From the NCBI GenBank assembly GCA_028284925.1, contig JANQQT010000214.1, positions 1-64,000 of the forward strand: DNA of 64,000 nucleotides. The letters run 5' to 3'. Source of the DNA: Phycisphaeraceae bacterium (GTDB lineage: Bacteria > Planctomycetota > Phycisphaerae > Phycisphaerales > Zrk34). Below the pieces are notes generated by a model. That model saw only the letters and a list, made by a program, of their open reading frames with translations, ran no database searches and was not told the DNA's origin. Numbering within the stretch: position 1 is the first letter of the stretch; the number at the start of each line of letters is the position of its first letter. The translations under genes were made by a program, and so were the position numbers. Positions 29,634 to 56,408 of this stretch are shown here, piece after piece.

Positions 29634-30596
29634 ATGGCTGACGAAAAAAAGAAAGACCAATCCACCGAATCCAAGAAACCCACTCCCCTGACCGGCAAAC
29701 CTCTTGAAGAGGACAATCAGTCCGAAGTACAGGAGTTCTTCGAAGGGCTTGGCGCATGGTGGAAAAAACACGGCACGTTCACCCTCATCATTGTGCTGGT
29801 CTGTATTGGCACGTCCATGCTCTACAACTGGTGGTCCACACGCGATGAACGCAACCGTGAAGCGGCTTATGAAGAACGATCCGGCGCGGCAACCGGTGAT
29901 GCTCTACTCGCCGTTGCTGGCAACCACACGTCCGTTCACGCGTTTGCTGCCAATACCCGTCTACAGGCAGGCAACGCGTTTTATAATCAGACCAAAGGCA
30001 ATCCCTTGGATCCCAGTGCCAAGAGACCCGATGACGCTACACGCGACGCCCTGCTGAAGAAAGCTGCCGAATCCTACGATTTCGTCCTGAACGATCCCAG
30101 TGCCACCACGTCGCAAAAAATTCAGGCTCATAGGGGCCTCGCTGTGGTTAGCGAAGACATCGGCGACAAAAAGAAGGCCGTCGAACATTACAACGAGATC
30201 ATAAGGATCGCGGATGGCTTCCCCAATCTGAAACTCCGCGCCACCAATCGTCGCGATAACATCGATAATATCGAGGTCGTCCACGAAATGCCTGACAAGC
30301 CCTACGTTGACCCCAACGCGAAGAAGATCGAACTCAATGGCTCCGACGATATCTTCAATCTACCCAAAGACAGAGATCCCCAAAAACCGGAACCTGACAA
30401 GACCAGTGGCTCAAAGAAACCCGACGCAAACAAACCCAAGTCACCCGATACAGCTAAACCTAAGATACCAGACAATACCAAGCCCAAGAAACCTGATACA
30501 ACTAAGCCCAAGACGCCAGACACGACCAAACCCAAATCGCCGGAAAATGCCAAAAAACCTGTTCCTGGTAAGGACGATTCGAAATCAAGTCCCTGA
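29634..30596 (+). CDS. YfgM-like TPR membrane protein with Lys-Pro repeat tail
   Basis: 320 residues: a cytoplasmic N-terminus, one membrane helix at about 48-66 (TFTLIIVLVCIGTSMLY), a periplasmic TPR-like helical region (~75-215), then a disordered tail. The tail contains a seven-to-eight-residue repeat of the form Lys-Pro-Lys-x-Pro-Asp-Thr-Thr. The N-terminal half matches the layout of YfgM/tetratricopeptide proteins that help at the Sec translocon (inference). A terminator follows 30 bases after the stop. Confidence 0.8.
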   Translation: MADEKKKDQSTESKKPTPLTGKPLEEDNQSEVQEFFEGLGAWWKKHGTFTLIIVLVCIGTSMLYNWWSTRDERNREAAYEERSGAATGDALLAVAGNHTSVHAFAANTRLQAGNAFYNQTKGNPLDPSAKRPDDATRDALLKKAAESYDFVLNDPSATTSQKIQAHRGLAVVSEDIGDKKKAVEHYNEIIRIADGFPNLKLRATNRRDNIDNIEVVHEMPDKPYVDPNAKKIELNGSDDIFNLPKDRDPQKPEPDKTSGSKKPDANKPKSPDTAKPKIPDNTKPKKPDTTKPKTPDTTKPKSPENAKKPVPGKDDSKSSP

Positions 30597-35396: not shown

Positions 35397-37487
35397 ATGT
35401 TTGACGACCGATCTTTTCAACTCACCTCGGATTTTAAACCTGCAGGCGACCAACCCGCCGCCATCGATCAAATCGTCTCTGCCGTCCAATCCGGCGACCG
35501 CTTTCAAACCCTCCTCGGCGTAACCGGTTCCGGCAAAACCTTCACCATGGCCAATGTCATCCAGCGACTCGAAAAACCAACTCTCATTATCAGCCATAAC
35601 AAAACCCTCGCTGCACAGCTCTACGAGGAATTTAAAGACCTCTTCCCCAACAACGCCGTCTCCTACTTCGTCAGCTACTACGACTACTACCAACCCGAAG
35701 CCTACATTCCTCAGCGCGACATTTACATCGAAAAAGATGCCTCCCGCAACGACGACCTCGATCGCCTTCGTCTCGCCGCCACCACCAATCTCATCTCAAG
35801 ACGCGATGTTATCATCGTTGCCTCCGTCTCATGCATCTTCGGCCTCGGCTCACCCGATGAATACAAACGCCAGGTCATCCGCCTCGACGTTGGCCAAACC
35901 ATCGATCGCCGCGACCTCCTGCTTGAACTCAACGACCTCCAGTACACTCGCAACGACACCGATTTCAAACGTGCCACCTATCGCGTCCGCGGCGACGTCG
36001 TCGAAATCCACCCCGCATACGAACAATTCGCCTACCGCATCGAACTCTTCGGCGACGATATTGACCGGTTGGAAATTATCAATCCTCTCACCGGCGAAAT
36101 ACTCGCTGAGGAGCAAAAACTTTTCATCTTCCCGGCCGTTCACTATGTCATGCCCGAAGACCAGATGGAGTACGCCGTCAATTCCATCAAGGAGGAACTC
36201 GACAAACAGGTCATGCACCTGCGTCATCACGGCAAACTCCTCGAAGCTCAACGCCTTCTCGCCCGAACCAAATACGACTTGGAGATGATTCACGAAGTCG
36301 GTTACTGCTCAGGTATCGAAAACTACTCCCGCCACCTCGATGGTCGTGAACCTGGCTCCAAGCCCTTCACGCTTATCGACTACTTCGCCAGCAACGACTG
36401 GCTTCTCATGATTGACGAATCTCACGCTACGATCCCTCAAATTCGAGCCATGTACAACGGTGATCAGCAAAGAAAAAACGTCCTTGTCGACCACGGCTTT
36501 CGACTCCCTTCCGCTCTCGACAACCGCCCCCTCAAATTCGAGGAATTCCAGGATGCGATGCCCAACACGGTCTTCGTTTCTGCGACGCCCGGTCCATACG
36601 AACTTGAAAAATGCCACGGCTCCGTCGTCGAACAGATCATTCGACCCACCGGTCTCGTGGATCCGCCAATCGAAATCCACTCCGCAACCGGCCAGGTGGC
36701 CCATCTCTACGAAGCCATCAGGCAACGCGCCGACAAAGGCGAGCGCTCCCTGGTCAACACACTGACCAAACGCCTCGCCGAAGATCTCGCCAAATACTTC
36801 GCTGAGCAGGGCCTTCGATGTCGATACCTGCACTCCGAAATCGTCACACTTGATCGCGTGCAAATTCTAAAGGAGCTGCGCGAAGGACATTTCGACGTCC
36901 TCATCGGCGTAAACCTCCTCCGTGAAGGTCTCGACCTGCCTGAAGTCTCTCTTGTTGCCATCATGGATGCCGACAAGACCGGCTTCCTCCGATCCGAGAC
37001 TTCCATGATCCAACAAATGGGCCGCGCCGCCCGAAACGCCGATGCCGTCGTCTATCTTTACGCCGACTCCGTCACACCCGCCATGCAAAAAGCCATCGAG
37101 GAATCCGAACGCCGCCGTAAACTCCAACTCGACTACAACGCCAAGCATAACATTACTCCCCAGACCATACAGAAAGCCATCCGCCAGTCCCTCGAGCTTG
37201 AAGTCAAAGGCCACCAGACCGCGCGCGAAGCCCTCAACGCGTCTGAAACCGAATACGAAACCACCGAACTGATTGCACTCCTCGAAGAACAAATGCTCAC
37301 CGCCGCCCAGGCCCTCGAATTTGAGAAAGCCGCCGCCATCCGCGACCGTATAAAGGAACTCAAAGATGCCCCCGAACTCACCACCACCTCTATTGCTGGC
37401 GATATTCCAAGTCTCATACGTCCTGAAGAAACAAGTATTCCTGGCGCTCCAGGCTCAAGGCCTAAGCCTCCGAAACACAAACGATAA
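35397..37487 (+). CDS. uvrB: Excinuclease ABC subunit UvrB
   Basis: 696 residues, the normal size. Nucleotide excision repair helicase-like protein that receives damage from UvrA and recruits UvrC. Walker A GVTGSGKT at about 41-48, the beta-hairpin region YYDYYQPEAYIPQ at ~93-105, MIDESHAT and the helicase motif QMGRAARN. The C-terminal UVR motif (ALEFEKAAAIRDRIKEL) that contacts UvrC is present near residue 640-656. Confidence 0.98.
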   Translation: MFDDRSFQLTSDFKPAGDQPAAIDQIVSAVQSGDRFQTLLGVTGSGKTFTMANVIQRLEKPTLIISHNKTLAAQLYEEFKDLFPNNAVSYFVSYYDYYQPEAYIPQRDIYIEKDASRNDDLDRLRLAATTNLISRRDVIIVASVSCIFGLGSPDEYKRQVIRLDVGQTIDRRDLLLELNDLQYTRNDTDFKRATYRVRGDVVEIHPAYEQFAYRIELFGDDIDRLEIINPLTGEILAEEQKLFIFPAVHYVMPEDQMEYAVNSIKEELDKQVMHLRHHGKLLEAQRLLARTKYDLEMIHEVGYCSGIENYSRHLDGREPGSKPFTLIDYFASNDWLLMIDESHATIPQIRAMYNGDQQRKNVLVDHGFRLPSALDNRPLKFEEFQDAMPNTVFVSATPGPYELEKCHGSVVEQIIRPTGLVDPPIEIHSATGQVAHLYEAIRQRADKGERSLVNTLTKRLAEDLAKYFAEQGLRCRYLHSEIVTLDRVQILKELREGHFDVLIGVNLLREGLDLPEVSLVAIMDADKTGFLRSETSMIQQMGRAARNADAVVYLYADSVTPAMQKAIEESERRRKLQLDYNAKHNITPQTIQKAIRQSLELEVKGHQTAREALNASETEYETTELIALLEEQMLTAAQALEFEKAAAIRDRIKELKDAPELTTTSIAGDIPSLIRPEETSIPGAPGSRPKPPKHKR

Positions 37488-37509: not shown

Positions 37510-38241
37510 CTAACGCTTGGCACCTCCCCTGGGCGAAAACGCCAAGCCTAGAAATATGCACAATCCGCCAATCGTAACGATGACTAACAACTCTTCCAGA
37601 GAATACCCATTCTGCTTCTTGACCTTAGTCTCCAGATTAGCCAATTGATCCGATAATTTTGTGTTCTTGTCCGCGAGGCTTGAATTCCATGTCTCCAGCT
37701 TCTTACCCAGTTTATCAATCTTGTCGCCATACGCCTCGTCCTTCTCTCGTATCACAGATTGCAGTTGTTTAATATCTTTCTCGCGTGATTTTAGATCGTT
37801 AATCTTTTTTGCAAATTCCTTAATCGTTTGACTCGATTTGCCCGTTAGTTCTCCGATGGTTTTTAAGGTAATTCGTTTCTGATCCGCCAGCTTTTGCTCA
37901 ACAACGCTGACGATGGGCTTAATATTGGCCTGTGCCGCAAGTTCAGCTTTGTTCAGCGTTTTTTCCAATGCGGACAATTGCGATTGGATTTCTGACAGTC
38001 GCCTCTCCGTCGTAACGTCGAAAATTACCTGATGATTCAAGCCCGACTGGATCTCATTCAATACGGTTTCCGTTGTATTGAGTTTTGTCCAAAGCTTGGA
38101 AATATCTTTCCTGAGTTCTGTAGTCTGTCTTGCAGTTAATGAGTCTAAATGTCCATTTCTTTTGTCGAGACTCTGTGCTGAGGTGTTGCAACCTGCCCCA
38201 ACCGCAATGACCCATACCAACGCCATTCGAGCTGTACACAT
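37510..38241 (-). CDS. Coiled-coil lipoprotein with C-terminal membrane segment (paralogue B)
   Basis: 243 residues from ATG 38241 with GAGG 6-7 bases upstream (an ORF start at 38277 is inside the hairpin region). Short signal ending in the lipobox-like VGAGC, a long coiled coil (~40-210) rich in Lys, Gln, Thr and Leu, and a C-terminal hydrophobic helix (LEELLVIVTIGGLCIFLGLA) ending in basic residues. Same architecture as the gene immediately upstream, so the two probably arose by duplication or act as a pair. Might bridge membranes across the periplasm (inference). No family recognised. Confidence 0.75.
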   Translation of the reverse strand: MCTARMALVWVIAVGAGCNTSAQSLDKRNGHLDSLTARQTTELRKDISKLWTKLNTTETVLNEIQSGLNHQVIFDVTTERRLSEIQSQLSALEKTLNKAELAAQANIKPIVSVVEQKLADQKRITLKTIGELTGKSSQTIKEFAKKINDLKSREKDIKQLQSVIREKDEAYGDKIDKLGKKLETWNSSLADKNTKLSDQLANLETKVKKQNGYSLEELLVIVTIGGLCIFLGLAFSPRGGAKR

Positions 38242-38266
38242 TTGTGCCTCACAATCTCTTGATGGT

Positions 38267-38306
38267 GGCCCCTCCATGATTGACCATAATCGATCATGAA
38301 GGGGCC
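38267..38306. repeat. Long imperfect palindrome between the two lipoprotein genes
   Basis: GGCCCCT-C-CATGATTGA (38267-38283) pairs with TCGATCATG-A-AGGGGCC (38290-38306), about 16 pairs with one mismatch and one G-U, loop CCATAA. There is no T run on either strand, so it is either an RNA processing or stability hairpin or a protein-binding site, not a typical terminator. Confidence 0.75.
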
Positions 38307-38335
38307 TCCGCTTTCATTTACTCACGTTAATTTCT

Positions 38336-39172
38336 TTAACCTCCAGCCCCGGCGGGTTGGGTCTTTTCTTGAGCATCCAGTCTGGCGTTGATCTTGTCCA
38401 ACTCGCCTTGCGACCTGCTTTTGCCAAGTCGACCTCCTCCCAACCCAATTCCTCCCACGGTCAGCAATGCCATGATTTCGGCTGGCGTGAATCCTTTCAA
38501 TTGCTCCATTTCTTGTTCCGTTAGCTTTAAGTCAGACTTCAGCTTCTCCCTAAATTGCTCATCATTTCCTTTCAACCGCTCCAGCTCCGCAATCAATTCA
38601 GGATTTTTGCTTGCCGCCGCAAACTTCTCCTTCGTCGACTCGCTTAACGAGTCGTATTTTGCCTTCAGTTCTGCATTCACGTCTTGTGCATCCTCAACCT
38701 CCTTAGCCAACTCCTTGTTTTTCTCAATCAACGCTTTCAATTCTGCGTCTGTTTTGCTCATACTATCGCTAATAGCACTAATCCGTTTTGTCGTTTCATC
38801 TACACGCTCATCAATTTTCTTCGTAATCCCTTGGACAATCGGATCAATCTTCCCCCCCGCCGCTAGATCTGTCGCAGTCAACACGGTCTTCCCCAGATTC
38901 CACAAATCAGCCTCAGTCTTCGCCGCCTCCTCCGCCTGCTTCGCGGCACGAGCATTGATGGCCGCCATTTCTTTTCTCGCCTCCTCGGCGTTCTTCAATA
39001 GCCCGTCCCTGTCCTTATTCAACAAATGAATCTGACCCTGTAAAATCTTCCCCTCCGCACTCGTTACCGAATTTACAATCTCCGCCTTCCCCGATTGATA
39101 CTCCGACGACGAAACGCATCCTCCAATCAACATGACAGAACTCAAGACCATTAATAGTTGCCTTTTCTTCAT
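38336..39172 (-). CDS. Coiled-coil lipoprotein with C-terminal hydrophobic segment (paralogue A)
   Basis: 278 residues from ATG 39172, with AAGGA about 9 bases upstream. Signal (LLMVLSSVMLIGGC) ends in lipobox IGGC; then a long coiled coil with Ala/Glu/Lys heptads (AEEARKEMAAINARAAKQAE) through residue ~220; then FTPAEIMALLTVGGIGLGGG, a hydrophobic Gly-rich segment, and a charged tail (GELDKINARLDAQEK). It shares lipobox, coiled coil and C-terminal hydrophobic order with the downstream gene, 94 bases away on the same strand. No known function. Confidence 0.78.
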   Translation of the reverse strand: MKKRQLLMVLSSVMLIGGCVSSSEYQSGKAEIVNSVTSAEGKILQGQIHLLNKDRDGLLKNAEEARKEMAAINARAAKQAEEAAKTEADLWNLGKTVLTATDLAAGGKIDPIVQGITKKIDERVDETTKRISAISDSMSKTDAELKALIEKNKELAKEVEDAQDVNAELKAKYDSLSESTKEKFAAASKNPELIAELERLKGNDEQFREKLKSDLKLTEQEMEQLKGFTPAEIMALLTVGGIGLGGGRLGKSRSQGELDKINARLDAQEKTQPAGAGG

Positions 39173-40123: not shown

Positions 40124-40159
40124 AAAAATCACTCCAATCACCCTTCAAGGAGCGTGTCA

Positions 40160-49477: not shown

Positions 49478-51274
49478 ATGACCCAAACGCAGGATCCAAC
49501 ACAGCAAGACATACAAACCTCCTCAGCCGACGCCGAGACCCCCTCGACGTCGGCTGATTCTACTTCCAATTCCGTATCTCCCACCTCCAATCGACCCCAA
49601 AGACCCCACGAAGCCTCCATCCGCGAAACACTCGAATCCATCGTCATCGCTTTCGTTCTCGCCTTCGTCTTCCGTGCGTTCGTCGTCGAGGCATTCGTCA
49701 TTCCCACTGGCTCCATGGCCCCCACACTCCTGGGCAAACACGTCCAGGTGACGTGTCCGCAATGCGGCTACACATTCACGCTCGGACCGGCACAATATGG
49801 CACGGGCGATGAACGAGTAGACCGCTTCGCTCAACAGCAGGGGGCAAGATTGGAACCCAAAGCGATTCAGTCCGGCTTGGTAATGCAATGCCCCATGTGC
49901 GAATACACCATTCGCGAACCCCGCCTGTCCACCAGGCAGGGTGACCGCATCCTCGTTCTTAAGTACATCTACGCCCTCACCGAGCCGAAACGCTGGGACG
50001 TCGTCGTCTTCAAAAATCCTGAAAACCCGCTGGATAACTACATCAAGCGTCTTGTCGGACTCCCCAACGAACAACTGCGCATCATAAGAGGCGATATCTA
50101 CACCCGAAAAACCAACAAAGACCTCTGGGTTATCCAACGTAAACCTGATCGTATCCAACGCGCCGTCTGGCAGCCTGTCTACCATTCACGATATACCCCC
50201 CGCGATGGCGGTAAACCTTCCACCCAACGCCAAACGGAGTGGAAATTCCCCTGGCGCGATTCCATCGCAGAAAAGTCAGGCGAATCTTCCCCCTTCAAGT
50301 ATATCAATGAGGGGCAAGCCATAGACTTCATTCCCAACGCAGACAGACCCGCATTCCTTGATTTCAACTTCTCCCCCGAAAAGCTAATCACCTTTTATGC
50401 CTACAACCAGTTTGACAACAGGGTCGACAATTCAAGGGGAGCGCCCGGCCCCTATCACGATGTCCGCGTAGCTGCTGCCGTTAAACCTCTCGATAAAAAT
50501 CTTACCACCCAATTCGTCATCGGTACTTCATACGCCTTCTTCCGCGCAATCATTTCGCCCGATGGCTCCGCCAAACTCCAACGACAGCCCCGCGCCGGCG
50601 TTGCATTCACCAAACCCATCGAATCCAAATGGCAAACCGTCAAGTCCACAGATGGCGCTGTAGTCCAATCCAAAGGCGATCCCCTTCCCTTGAACCGCGG
50701 CACAGCCGTCGAATTCTGGCACGTCGATCAAAAACTCTCACTCTGGATCAGGGATGAAAAATTCCTTGAGTGGAACTACGAACTTCAGGATCTCCTTGAC
50801 GAAGCACGCTTCGCCGACCATGCCCTCCTGCAAAACCGCTTCAAACTCCATGATTCAGACTTCGATACCGAGATGCCGGCCCTTACCATCCGCATCGGCC
50901 TCTCCGGTGCGCCCGCCCGCCTCCGTAACCTCGAACTTGATCGTGACCTCTACTACACCTTTCAAAACCGAGGCAATGAAGACGGACTCGGCAACGGTCA
51001 AAACATTGCCAGGATCGGCAAGGACGAGTTCTACTGCCTCGGCGACAACTCCCCCGCCAGTAAAGATTCCAGAATGTGGACCGGTGTCCACTCGCTTGTC
51101 AAAGGCGTCGTTAATCCCAATCGAAACAAAGACAACTACATTCAACCCGGCCTCGTTCCCCGCGAACTCATGATCGGAAAAGCATTCTTTGTTTACTTCC
51201 CCGCCCCACACTCCATCTCCAAAGACAGTTGGGGTGTCATCCCCAACTTTGGCAAGATGCGATTCATCCACTGA
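49478..51274 (+). CDS. lepB: Signal peptidase I with zinc-ribbon and large insertions
   Basis: 598 residues, about twice the usual length. A membrane helix at ~50-73 is followed by the catalytic serine motif IPTGSMAPTL (Ser79) and the general-base lysine Lys190 in NYIKRLVGLP; the C-terminal GDNSPASKDSR motif is at ~522-532. Two insertions stand out: residues ~92-145 with CPQC and CPMC (Cys93, 96, 138, 141), a likely zinc ribbon, and ~300 residues (215-515) of beta-rich sequence before the last motif. It removes signal peptides from exported proteins, of which this region encodes many. Confidence 0.9.
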   Translation: MTQTQDPTQQDIQTSSADAETPSTSADSTSNSVSPTSNRPQRPHEASIRETLESIVIAFVLAFVFRAFVVEAFVIPTGSMAPTLLGKHVQVTCPQCGYTFTLGPAQYGTGDERVDRFAQQQGARLEPKAIQSGLVMQCPMCEYTIREPRLSTRQGDRILVLKYIYALTEPKRWDVVVFKNPENPLDNYIKRLVGLPNEQLRIIRGDIYTRKTNKDLWVIQRKPDRIQRAVWQPVYHSRYTPRDGGKPSTQRQTEWKFPWRDSIAEKSGESSPFKYINEGQAIDFIPNADRPAFLDFNFSPEKLITFYAYNQFDNRVDNSRGAPGPYHDVRVAAAVKPLDKNLTTQFVIGTSYAFFRAIISPDGSAKLQRQPRAGVAFTKPIESKWQTVKSTDGAVVQSKGDPLPLNRGTAVEFWHVDQKLSLWIRDEKFLEWNYELQDLLDEARFADHALLQNRFKLHDSDFDTEMPALTIRIGLSGAPARLRNLELDRDLYYTFQNRGNEDGLGNGQNIARIGKDEFYCLGDNSPASKDSRMWTGVHSLVKGVVNPNRNKDNYIQPGLVPRELMIGKAFFVYFPAPHSISKDSWGVIPNFGKMRFIH

Positions 51275-52743: not shown

Positions 52744-53059
52744 AACACGATCTCCAGGAGACTTTTTCTAACAACAAGGTAAGTGCCCACGCCCACATTC
52801 ACAGGGCAACCTACGATAACTTCACCCTGAAGCGCATGGACTACACAATCAACCCCTCTCAAACGCTAATTTAGCACACAATTCGCCCTCTGGGTGAAGC
52901 TTCCGTTCCAAAAATCAGTTGTGATTCCGACTCACCTACGCTATCCTATAACCATAGGTTGTGTGAGTAACCTCACCTCTCTCGCACGGTAAATCGTCTA
53001 ATCCCGAAAGCAGGAATTTGATTCAATCCTGGTATTGGATCATCGCACGGAGATTTCTG
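52744..53059. other. Intergenic region before the collar-repeat genes
   Basis: About 316 bases between divergent genes; contains a promoter-like element at 52919-52947 facing the first collar-repeat gene. Nothing else recognised. Confidence 0.5.
52919..52947 (+). promoter_or_regulatory. Candidate promoter for the collar-repeat genes
   Basis: TTGTGA (52919-52924) and TATCCT (52942-52947), spacer 17. The -35 hexamer is the same as that proposed before the gene at 48218. Read by eye. Confidence 0.35.
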
Positions 53060-54814
53060 ATGTCCGCCAGATTCACCAAATCGCTGATCGCTTGTAGCGT
53101 GCTGTTTATCTCGTTCGCCTCTCACTTTACTTTCGCCGATTTCATCACCGAATCCACCGGCGGAGGTCAACCCCACAACAACTACCAACCCTCATTGGGC
53201 CTCAATCACATCATCGCTCTTCAGGGAACATACCCCTCTCGCTCCGCCCAGGCGTCAAGCCCATACATTGGCGAGATTCAGATGTTCGCCGGAAACTTCG
53301 CCCCGCGCGGCTGGGCATTGGCAGACGGACAATTACTCTCAGTCTCGAGCAACGAAGCACTCTTCTCAATCTTGGGAACCACCTATGGTGGTGACGGTCG
53401 TACAACGTTCGGCCTCCCCGACCTTCGCGGTAGAACGGTCGTCCATCAAGGCCACGGGCCCGGCCTGACCAGTCGCCGCCTGGGTGATGATTTTGGAGCA
53501 TCTAATCACACGCTTACCCTCGATCAATTACCCTCTCACACCCATAACATCATCTTACCCGTTGACGACGGGACAGGCGGCACAACCAACCGACCTTTCG
53601 GTCAAACCCTGCCAGCGGGTGGTGGCCGGCCCCACAACAACATTCAGCCTTCTCTCGCCATGACCCGCTACGTTTCGCGAACAGGCCTTTTCCCTTCCCG
53701 AAATGGATCCGTGGATGGACTCGTCGATGGCGGAGGTGCAGGTGGATTTTTCGGCGAACCGTTTCTCGCCTCCGTCCGAACTTTCGCGGGGAACTTCGTT
53801 CCCGGCAACGATGATGGCCACGCCGCTGCCGCCGATGGTCAGATATTGCCAATTAACCAAAATCAGGCTCTGTTCTCCCTGATGGGAACCACCTACGGTG
53901 GCGATGGACGAACGTCCTTCGGCCTTCCCGATCTCCGCGGCCGCGCCGTGACCTCCTCTGGCACAGGCCCTGGCCTGCCCACGCATCCCTTGGGCGAGAC
54001 ATTCGGCAGCGAAAACTCAGCATTGTTAAGCAGTAACCTGCCTCCCCATACCCATCCTATCACCAAATTCGATACGGATACCCTAGTACAATACGCCGGG
54101 GATGGACAACCTCTCGACAACCACCAACCCACCGAAACGCTGAATTACATCATCAGGCTCGTCGGCACATTCCCGTCCAGAAACGGTTCCGTCGATGACG
54201 GCTCGGGCGAAGGTGGCGGAAACGCATCAGTCGAGGGCTTCATTGGCGAAGTCGCCCTGTTCGCAGGAAACTTCGCCCCAAGAGGCTGGGCCTTAGCCAA
54301 TGGACAACTCCTCCCGATTGCCCAAAACACAGCCCTTTTCTCTATACTCGGCACCACTTACGGTGGTGATGGCCGAAACAACTTCGGTCTCCCCGACCTC
54401 CGCGGACGCATCCCCGTTCACCCCGATACTCGACCTCCCGGGACGCTCAATGATATTCGTCTTGGTCAGAAGTTTGGCGATCACGAAGAGTTATTAACTC
54501 TCCTCCAAATGCCCGCCCACAGTCACCTCACACCCGTCCCAGGCGACGCCGATCTGGACCGTGATGTCGACATCGTCGACTACAAAATCTTCTTCAACGC
54601 ATTGGGGAAATCGCTGCATGGCCCTTCGAGTGGCGACTTCAATTACGATGGCGCCATCGATGGTTTCGACTTTTCCATCTGGCAGGAACACTATGGCGTG
54701 GGTCTTGGTAATCCAGGATTTGTCGAGGGTAATCCCATTCCCGAGCCCGCCACATTAACCCTGATCGCAGCAGTCTTGATCGGCTATAATGCACGTAGAC
54801 AACGAAAAACCTGA
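53060..54814 (+). CDS. Secreted tandem phage-tail-collar protein with dockerin-like and PEP-CTERM ends
   Basis: 584 residues from ATG 53060, with GGAGA 6 bases upstream. A signal peptide precedes three tail-collar (microcystin-dependent protein type) modules at ~70-126, 235-296 and 396-450; each has GEIQMFAGNFAPRGWALADG-like sequence and GTTYGGDG-FGLPDLRGR. Between them lie repeats of QPHNNYQPSLGLNHIIALQG type. Residues ~495-546 resemble a dockerin (DADLDRDVDIVDYKIFF, then FNYDGAIDGFDFSIW). The end (IPEPATLTLIAAVLIGY plus RRQRK) is a PEP-CTERM sorting signal, so an exosortase should anchor it. Such modules normally sit in phage tails; here they are cell-surface proteins. Confidence 0.88.
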   Translation: MSARFTKSLIACSVLFISFASHFTFADFITESTGGGQPHNNYQPSLGLNHIIALQGTYPSRSAQASSPYIGEIQMFAGNFAPRGWALADGQLLSVSSNEALFSILGTTYGGDGRTTFGLPDLRGRTVVHQGHGPGLTSRRLGDDFGASNHTLTLDQLPSHTHNIILPVDDGTGGTTNRPFGQTLPAGGGRPHNNIQPSLAMTRYVSRTGLFPSRNGSVDGLVDGGGAGGFFGEPFLASVRTFAGNFVPGNDDGHAAAADGQILPINQNQALFSLMGTTYGGDGRTSFGLPDLRGRAVTSSGTGPGLPTHPLGETFGSENSALLSSNLPPHTHPITKFDTDTLVQYAGDGQPLDNHQPTETLNYIIRLVGTFPSRNGSVDDGSGEGGGNASVEGFIGEVALFAGNFAPRGWALANGQLLPIAQNTALFSILGTTYGGDGRNNFGLPDLRGRIPVHPDTRPPGTLNDIRLGQKFGDHEELLTLLQMPAHSHLTPVPGDADLDRDVDIVDYKIFFNALGKSLHGPSSGDFNYDGAIDGFDFSIWQEHYGVGLGNPGFVEGNPIPEPATLTLIAAVLIGYNARRQRKT

Positions 54815-54863
54815 CTTGCAAAAGTCCCCCTTAACCTAACCTGAAAAAGATGAAGGATTGACC

Positions 54864-56408
54864 ATGCCCGTCAAACTTAAGACGCTATCGTTTATGATTC
54901 TTGTGTCCTTTTTCGCGGTGACTTCCGTTCCCCTCCACGCGGCCCTCGCCACCCTCCCCACAGGTGGTTCACAACCCCACAACAATTACCAGCCTTCGCT
55001 TGGCCTCAACCACATCATTGCCCTTCAGGGAGTCTTCCCGGAAATCAACGGCAGTCAATCCGTCCCCACACTCGGCGAGGTTCAACTCTTTGCCGGCAAC
55101 TTTGCGCCACGCGGCTGGGCTTTTGCCAATGGGCAGGAGCTTTCCATTGCACAGAACAGCGCGCTCTTCTCTCTCATCGGCACGACCTATGGCGGCGATG
55201 GTGAATCAACATTCAAGCTCCCTGATCTCCGTGGACGAACGGTCGTCGGTACGGTCGGTATCAATGCGAACACCTCAGGCCTCACCGCCCGTTCAATTGG
55301 CGATGCGTTTGGCAATTCAACGCACACGCTCACCTCAAACCAAATCCCCACACACCGCCACGACATCAACAACGTCGTAGACGATGGAATGGGCGGCCAG
55401 ATCGTGACCCCTGCCGGCAAAACCTTCTCCACAGGTGGCGGTGCTTCACACCCCAACATACAACCCTCATTCGCACTCCACACCAATCTCGCCCCAATCG
55501 GTATTTTTCCTTCTCCAGGCGGCTCCGTCGATGGCGATGTTGATTCGGGCGGCGGTTCAGGCCTCTTAGGCGGCGAGCCGTTCATCGCCTCAATCAGAAG
55601 ATCAATAAACCAATCACCAGGTTTCACGGGTAATGGTCTCCCCGCAGATGGTCGTCTTCTACCTATTGCACAAAACACCGCACTCTTCTCACTAATCGGA
55701 ACGATCTATGGCGGTGATGGCGAGACCAACTTTGCTCTGCCCGATGCCCGCGGCCGTGCCATCACCTCTTCAGGCAACGGCCCAGGCCTGCCCTCGCGTA
55801 CTATTGGCTCAAAATTTGGCGCAGAGGACATCACACTTACTATCGATAACCTCCCGCCACACTCCCATTCCCTCCCGTTCACCTCTGACTCAATCCTCGC
55901 CGATACGGGATCAGGCAACCCCCATGAGAATCACCAACCCACCATTACGCTTAATTACATGATTCGCCTCACGGGAATCTTCCCCTCTCAGAATGGCTCA
56001 ATCGACGACGGCTCAGGCGAAGGTGGTGGAAATGCAGGCGTCGAAGGCTTCATAGGTGAAGTCGCCCTATTCGCCGGAAACTTCGCACCGCGAGGGTGGA
56101 CGCTTGCTAACGGTCAACTTCTCCATATCTCCCAAAACCAGGCACTCTTCTCCATTCTCGGCACAACCTTTGGCGGTGATGGCGAAACAACATTCGGACT
56201 CCCCGACCTCCGTGGCCGCGTTCCCGTCCACCCTGGAGCAGACGGCATCTCACTCGGTCATAAGTTCGGGTCACCAACACAGGCGCTCACCATCCAAACT
56301 ATACCCTCCCACGCCCACGATATCCCTGAACCCACAACCGCCCTAATCCTCCTTTCCGCCGCCCTTACTTGCATCCCGAGACGACAAAGCACTCGAGGGA
56401 TTTCCTGA
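54864..56408 (+). CDS. Secreted tandem phage-tail-collar protein with PEP-CTERM end
   Basis: 514 residues from ATG 54864 with AAGGA 6 bases upstream. A close paralogue of the preceding gene, 49 bases away and same strand: signal peptide (SFMILVSFFAVTSVPLHA), then the same alternation of QPHNNYQPSLGLNHIIALQG and collar modules (LFAGNFAPRGWAFANGQ, GTTYGGDGESTFKLPDLRGR), three in all. It lacks the dockerin-like segment. The C-terminus IPEPTTALILLSAALTCI followed by PRRQ is a PEP-CTERM signal. The pair arose by duplication and is likely co-expressed. Confidence 0.87.
   Translation: MPVKLKTLSFMILVSFFAVTSVPLHAALATLPTGGSQPHNNYQPSLGLNHIIALQGVFPEINGSQSVPTLGEVQLFAGNFAPRGWAFANGQELSIAQNSALFSLIGTTYGGDGESTFKLPDLRGRTVVGTVGINANTSGLTARSIGDAFGNSTHTLTSNQIPTHRHDINNVVDDGMGGQIVTPAGKTFSTGGGASHPNIQPSFALHTNLAPIGIFPSPGGSVDGDVDSGGGSGLLGGEPFIASIRRSINQSPGFTGNGLPADGRLLPIAQNTALFSLIGTIYGGDGETNFALPDARGRAITSSGNGPGLPSRTIGSKFGAEDITLTIDNLPPHSHSLPFTSDSILADTGSGNPHENHQPTITLNYMIRLTGIFPSQNGSIDDGSGEGGGNAGVEGFIGEVALFAGNFAPRGWTLANGQLLHISQNQALFSILGTTFGGDGETTFGLPDLRGRVPVHPGADGISLGHKFGSPTQALTIQTIPSHAHDIPEPTTALILLSAALTCIPRRQSTRGIS

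Follow-up and report, generated by a model that had tools for sequence, protein, structure and literature searches.

Two neighbouring predicted lipoproteins with helical stalks in a planctomycete: a candidate membrane tether beside a member of a small lipoprotein family

The Braun lipoprotein, Lpp, is a helical lipoprotein of the outer membrane that acts as a spacer. In Omp-alpha of Thermotoga maritima a long coiled-coil spacer has been observed to span the periplasm (PMC5082667). A third design, that of the unimolecular spanins (u-spanins), places an N-terminal lipobox and a C-terminal transmembrane segment in one protein (PMC6139136). Here we consider two adjacent genes, A and B (table 1), in a 64,000-nucleotide stretch of planctomycete DNA (the window), and compare their products with these systems.

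How close is the resemblance? Both proteins share with Omp-alpha a long coiled-coil spacer and with Lpp the build of a helical lipoprotein; each is a functional analogue only. Omp-alpha is not known to have a lipid anchor, and its domain order is different. A and B are about four times longer than Lpp and do not end in the lysine by which Lpp is attached to the wall. In the comparison with the PDB, Lpp chains appeared only at E 0.25–0.45, among coiled-coil noise. The unimolecular spanin of phage T1, gp11, resembles A alone, in carrying a lipid anchor and a C-terminal transmembrane segment on one polypeptide; B does not have the latter. However, the periplasmic part of A is predicted to be helical whereas that of T1 gp11 is beta-rich, the gene is chromosomal without a lysis cassette, and no sequence relation was found.

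Might A, and B with it, be left-over phage lysis proteins of the u-spanin kind? A has the topology that u-spanins are described as having (PMC6139136), but a helical periplasmic part departs from the beta prototype. The pair lies, moreover, between uvrB (ending at 37487, + strand) and glnA (starting at 40154, + strand), no holin or endolysin was seen among the window genes, neither B nor its family has homologs in viral contigs or phage records, A has no relative in viral contigs, and the PHROGs matches stand at the level of coiled-coil noise only. A search of plasmids with one relative of B (P0010) also gave no homologs. Null viral searches and housekeeping neighbours rule against a phage or mobile origin, and we consider the lysis-protein reading very improbable.

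Table 1. Positions in the window of the two genes and of the features discussed in the text.
Feature	Position	Strand	Evidence
Gene A, 243-residue predicted lipoprotein with helical stalk and C-terminal transmembrane helix (residues about 215–236)	37510–38241	-	ORF, ribosome-binding site, hydrophobicity, AlphaFold2
C-terminal segment of A, QNGYSLEELLVIVTIGGLCIFLGLAF: capping box at the helix start, strongly transmembrane in character	37531–37608	-	hydrophobicity; in-register match to B
Hairpin between the genes: stem of 14 bp with one mismatch, loop of 12 nt, no following T run	38267–38306	-	folding, genome and Rfam searches
Gene B, 278-residue predicted lipoprotein with helical stalk and conserved C-terminal module	38336–39172	-	ORF, ribosome-binding site, family, AlphaFold2
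Conserved C-terminal module of B (residues about 175–253), PELIAELERLKGNDEQFREKLKSDLKLTEQEMEQLKGFTPAEIMALLTVGG...GKSR	38414–38650	-	alignments and AlphaFold2 pLDDT

The genes are read from the minus strand, B first and A after a gap of 94 bases. B starts at ATG 39172, with AAGGAAG upstream and the signal MKKRQLLMVLSSVMLIGGC followed by V. For A the most likely start is ATG 38241, with GAGG just upstream and the signal MCTARMALVWVIAVGAGC followed by N; it gives 243 residues and is preferred to the start of a longer reading frame at 38277, a position within the hairpin. The adjacent lipoprotein pair of the preliminary description, drawn from the sequence before any search, is borne out: each reading frame is preceded by a ribosome-binding site and opens with a signal peptide of the lipoprotein type. 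The lipobox it gave to each stands as such a signal, but the strict form [LVI][ASTVI][GAS]C is matched exactly by neither protein (GAGC in A, IGGC in B). Judging from these predicted signals, both would be acylated at the N-terminal cysteine. The two genes are probably co-transcribed.

Other genes of the window deserve a brief record. A tandem pair of tail-collar-like secreted proteins (53018–54814 and 54858–56408, +) has three internal repeats in each, with PEP-CTERM-like sorting signals at both C-terminal ends of the chains. A 598-residue signal peptidase I-like protein (49478–51274, +) has a Cys-rich insert (CPQCGYTF ... CPMCEYTI), and a TPR-like membrane protein (29634–30596, +) ends in a Pro/Lys/Thr repeat tail (KPKSPDT).

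The palindrome that had been remarked between the genes is real. As RNA it folds at -33.6 kcal/mol (z -4.9); its stem is the second longest found in the window, and about 25 bases separate its end from the A start downstream. It is present in a single copy, with no match as a repeated element in the genome or as a family in Rfam. An intrinsic terminator was considered and rejected, a terminator scan having found none here and the hairpin having no T run behind it. It is possible that the hairpin sets the ratio of B to A, as an mRNA stabiliser or a partial barrier.

What shape might the two proteins take? In the AlphaFold2 models A and B are almost wholly helix, in keeping with the long coiled coils first proposed. 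A is modelled as helices 3–102, 108–211 and 215–234 (pLDDT mostly 50–78), and B as helices 22–105 and 111–174 followed by short helices, so that the stalk is broken near its middle in both (about 103–107 in A, about 106–110 in B). As one straight helix the mature stalk of A, about 195 residues, would measure about 29 nm (at 0.15 nm per residue). Confidence in both stalks is low, however (pLDDT about 35–78; pTM 0.37 and 0.28), and the stalks might equally be rods or be bent back on themselves. A and B might then be lipoproteins of one membrane, whose stalks fold back at the central break as a helical hairpin, with lipid and C-terminal helix in that one membrane, and serve as local scaffolds instead of tethers. 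The two arms of A are similar in length (about 85 and 104 residues) and the charges would also fit a hairpin at the inner membrane; but the break is taken from a model of low confidence and the alignment is too shallow for covariation between paired arms. We regard the fold-back reading as unlikely, though far from fanciful. Structure searches with both models gave nothing significant (best E 1.9 and 0.91 in the PDB, 0.27 among viral models).

The preliminary description gave A and B terminal hydrophobic segments of similar character, by which they could span the periplasm. Both segments exist, but they differ in character. That of A, near the protein end, is a strong transmembrane helix (KD19 2.53, Wimley–White octanol -9.3) and is followed by a short basic tail (charges +3/-0). 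That of B lies about 30 residues before the C-terminus and is not transmembrane-like (KD19 1.28, octanol +2.2); in some relatives of B the C-terminal segment comes closer to a transmembrane helix. In the model the B segment closes a small helical domain as its final helix. This domain is formed by the C-terminal module, the sole confident part of the prediction (pLDDT 85–93 over residues 171–230 and, lower at the hydrophobic helix, 78 over 231–240), and the segment is better read as part of it. Spanning therefore fits A, with its lipid anchor, helix, strong transmembrane segment and basic tail, and is a weak proposition for B.

If B does not end in a membrane helix, to what does it belong? A paralog of 350 residues (P0003) is encoded on another contig (C291) of the same genome; it is found from B alone at E 2e-7 with 30% identity, and the similarity remains significant against a control that preserves the hydrophobic pattern (z 4.1–4.3). 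By eye, genes near the paralog look like those of an iron-type ABC transporter and a TetR-like regulator. A profile of two rows then recovered four relatives (L012–L015) in another family of the same class, and re-searching that family gave eight credible genomes of 51, adding L027–L030. Outside the class the same design was met in one genome of 392 in the phylum and in a second genome of its order (L019 and L051). Relatives of B thus occur in ten other Planctomycetota genomes of two classes; two of the family loci come from Phycisphaerae MAGs. Four further matches, L008 (an ATP synthase b subunit), L016 (HlyD-like), L031 and L032, were rejected as noise. In genome G810 the signal and the stalk of L051 (about 2150–2480, -) lie in different frames, a frameshift that is either real or derived from the assembly.

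A lipoprotein signal is present at the N-terminus of B, of the paralog and of nine relatives, L030 being left out of the count as its N-terminus is unreadable. All share a C-terminal module, LT..E(I/M)..L...(T/S)..EI..LL.(GG)...G.SR. By alignment its order is an amphipathic helix, LT/LS..E(I/M)..L, a helix start of the form [FLMY]-[ST]-x-x-[EQD]-[IL], G-x-S-R and a charged tail; in most members the helix so opened is Gly-rich and hydrophobic. B has both the capped Gly-rich helix and the G-x-S-R by alignment and model, while the paralog has GKSG where B has GKSR. A helix start of this type combines a hydrophobic staple and a capping box; this would account for the similar look of unrelated membrane helices, prepilins included. 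Both A and B fall below the curated cut-offs of Pfam and NCBIfam, our standard there, and neither rises above coiled-coil noise in PHROGs. The earlier statement that no family could be recognised holds for these libraries, but B itself has relatives in two classes. We conclude that B founds a small, previously undescribed and unnamed family of Planctomycetota lipoproteins, the kind of protein itself being known.

Is A, then, a diverged copy of B? It is without the C-terminal module of the B family and the G-x-S-R, having only the helix start and the transmembrane helix, and its corresponding region is modelled as a continuous helix. Nonetheless, the C-termini of A and B are reciprocal best ungapped matches among the 41 window proteins compared (41/40, runner-up 33/35). 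Alignment of the pair is collinear along the whole length and scores z 4.5–6 against window shuffles. The stretches it links are LAA..I.PIV in the middle of the chain and, where the C-terminal helix starts, G(Y/F)(S/T)..E(L/I); hhalign places the same two stretches in register, and the stalk break falls at the LAA..I.P site in both proteins. Under a stricter control, in which the hydrophobic and polar pattern was preserved in 28-residue windows, the pair alignment becomes marginal (p 0.06–0.12).

Alternatively B is a lipoprotein of its family and A an unrelated coiled-coil membrane lipoprotein that adjoins it by chance, the similarity reflecting the heptad pattern and a widespread way of starting a helix, with a hydrophobic staple plus an S/T-x-x-E capping box. 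This would accord with the marginal stricter control and with the lack of signal between A and the other nine members of the B family. The motif, moreover, arises easily: near its C-terminus A carries a form of it that is matched by the N-terminus of a prepilin as well (KKQSGFTLVEILIVVVILGIL, L041). Coincidence accounts less well for collinear matches at two separate places, a common stalk break and adjacency on one strand, and we judge it a real but somewhat improbable alternative. Nor do other genomes supply A with convincing relatives: the matches inspected in 298 genomes of the class, among them an MCE-type protein and a prepilin, were coiled-coil or prepilin noise and were rejected.

The prepilin likeness raises the further question of whether A is related to pili, its C-terminal segment being a type III (prepilin) signal. 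Its G-Y-S-L-E-E-L does resemble the prepilin consensus, in which cleavage at G is followed by F-T-x-x-E, and residues 200–226 of P0001 give a weak PHROG 'pilin' match (E 0.016). But for prepilin peptidase the motif is wrongly oriented and wrongly placed, at the other end of the chain, and the B family has the same helix start without pilin features; this reading is scarcely credible. We think it rather probable, from the alignments, that A is paralogous to B, as a far-diverged tandem copy.

The preliminary description had let the case for a pair turn on homology between the two and on conserved pairing in relatives. The homology is suggestive; the pairing was not conserved, as none of the other B-family loci examined (about 1.5 kb or more on each side) has an A-like neighbour. 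As far as can be seen among these loci, no other genome shares the pairing of A and B. Nor is any neighbourhood conserved across the family loci. In L027 (2256–3584), L028 (288–1448) and L029 (2–1270) the B-type gene and a hybrid histidine kinase-like gene are arranged tail to tail; this kinase neighbour is common only to these three loci of one genus (three genomes).

How might such a pair work? In the explanation that we prefer, A and B would be neighbouring lipoproteins in the envelope of a Phycisphaerae-like planctomycete and most likely a far-diverged tandem pair, each acylated at its N-terminal cysteine and standing on the membrane as a helical stalk broken once near the middle. B would end in a small helical docking module, whose Gly-rich capped helix and basic G-x-S-R stretch probably serve to bind a partner or a second membrane at its face. 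A would have lost this module, or never had it, and would bear at that end a true transmembrane helix and basic tail. Given such an end, A with its lipid in the outer membrane would reach across the periplasm to an anchorage in the inner membrane, its tail inside, as a passive tether or spacer between the membranes. Geometry is the chief doubt here, since a stalk folded back at the central break would leave both ends of A in one membrane. The hairpin would allow different levels of B and A. We infer the functions of A and B from anatomy only, and infer likewise the choice of membrane, the extended shape, the tethering, the binding of a partner and the role of the hairpin; sorting to the outer membrane in planctomycetes is unreadable from sequence. 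As a whole, a diverged tandem pair with A as membrane tether and B as a stalk with a docking module is an account we hold tentatively. The bolder version, in which both paralogs are periplasm-spanning tethers, a transmembrane helix has replaced the docking module in one, and the pair offers a cellular counterpart of the u-spanin layout, seems to us distinctly unlikely.

The B family is absent from the curated libraries, but it is not a new kind of system. Little is known of the means by which planctomycetes keep their unusual, variably spaced membranes together. The small family described here, of helical stalks anchored by lipid and sharing a conserved C-terminal module, supplies defined candidates.
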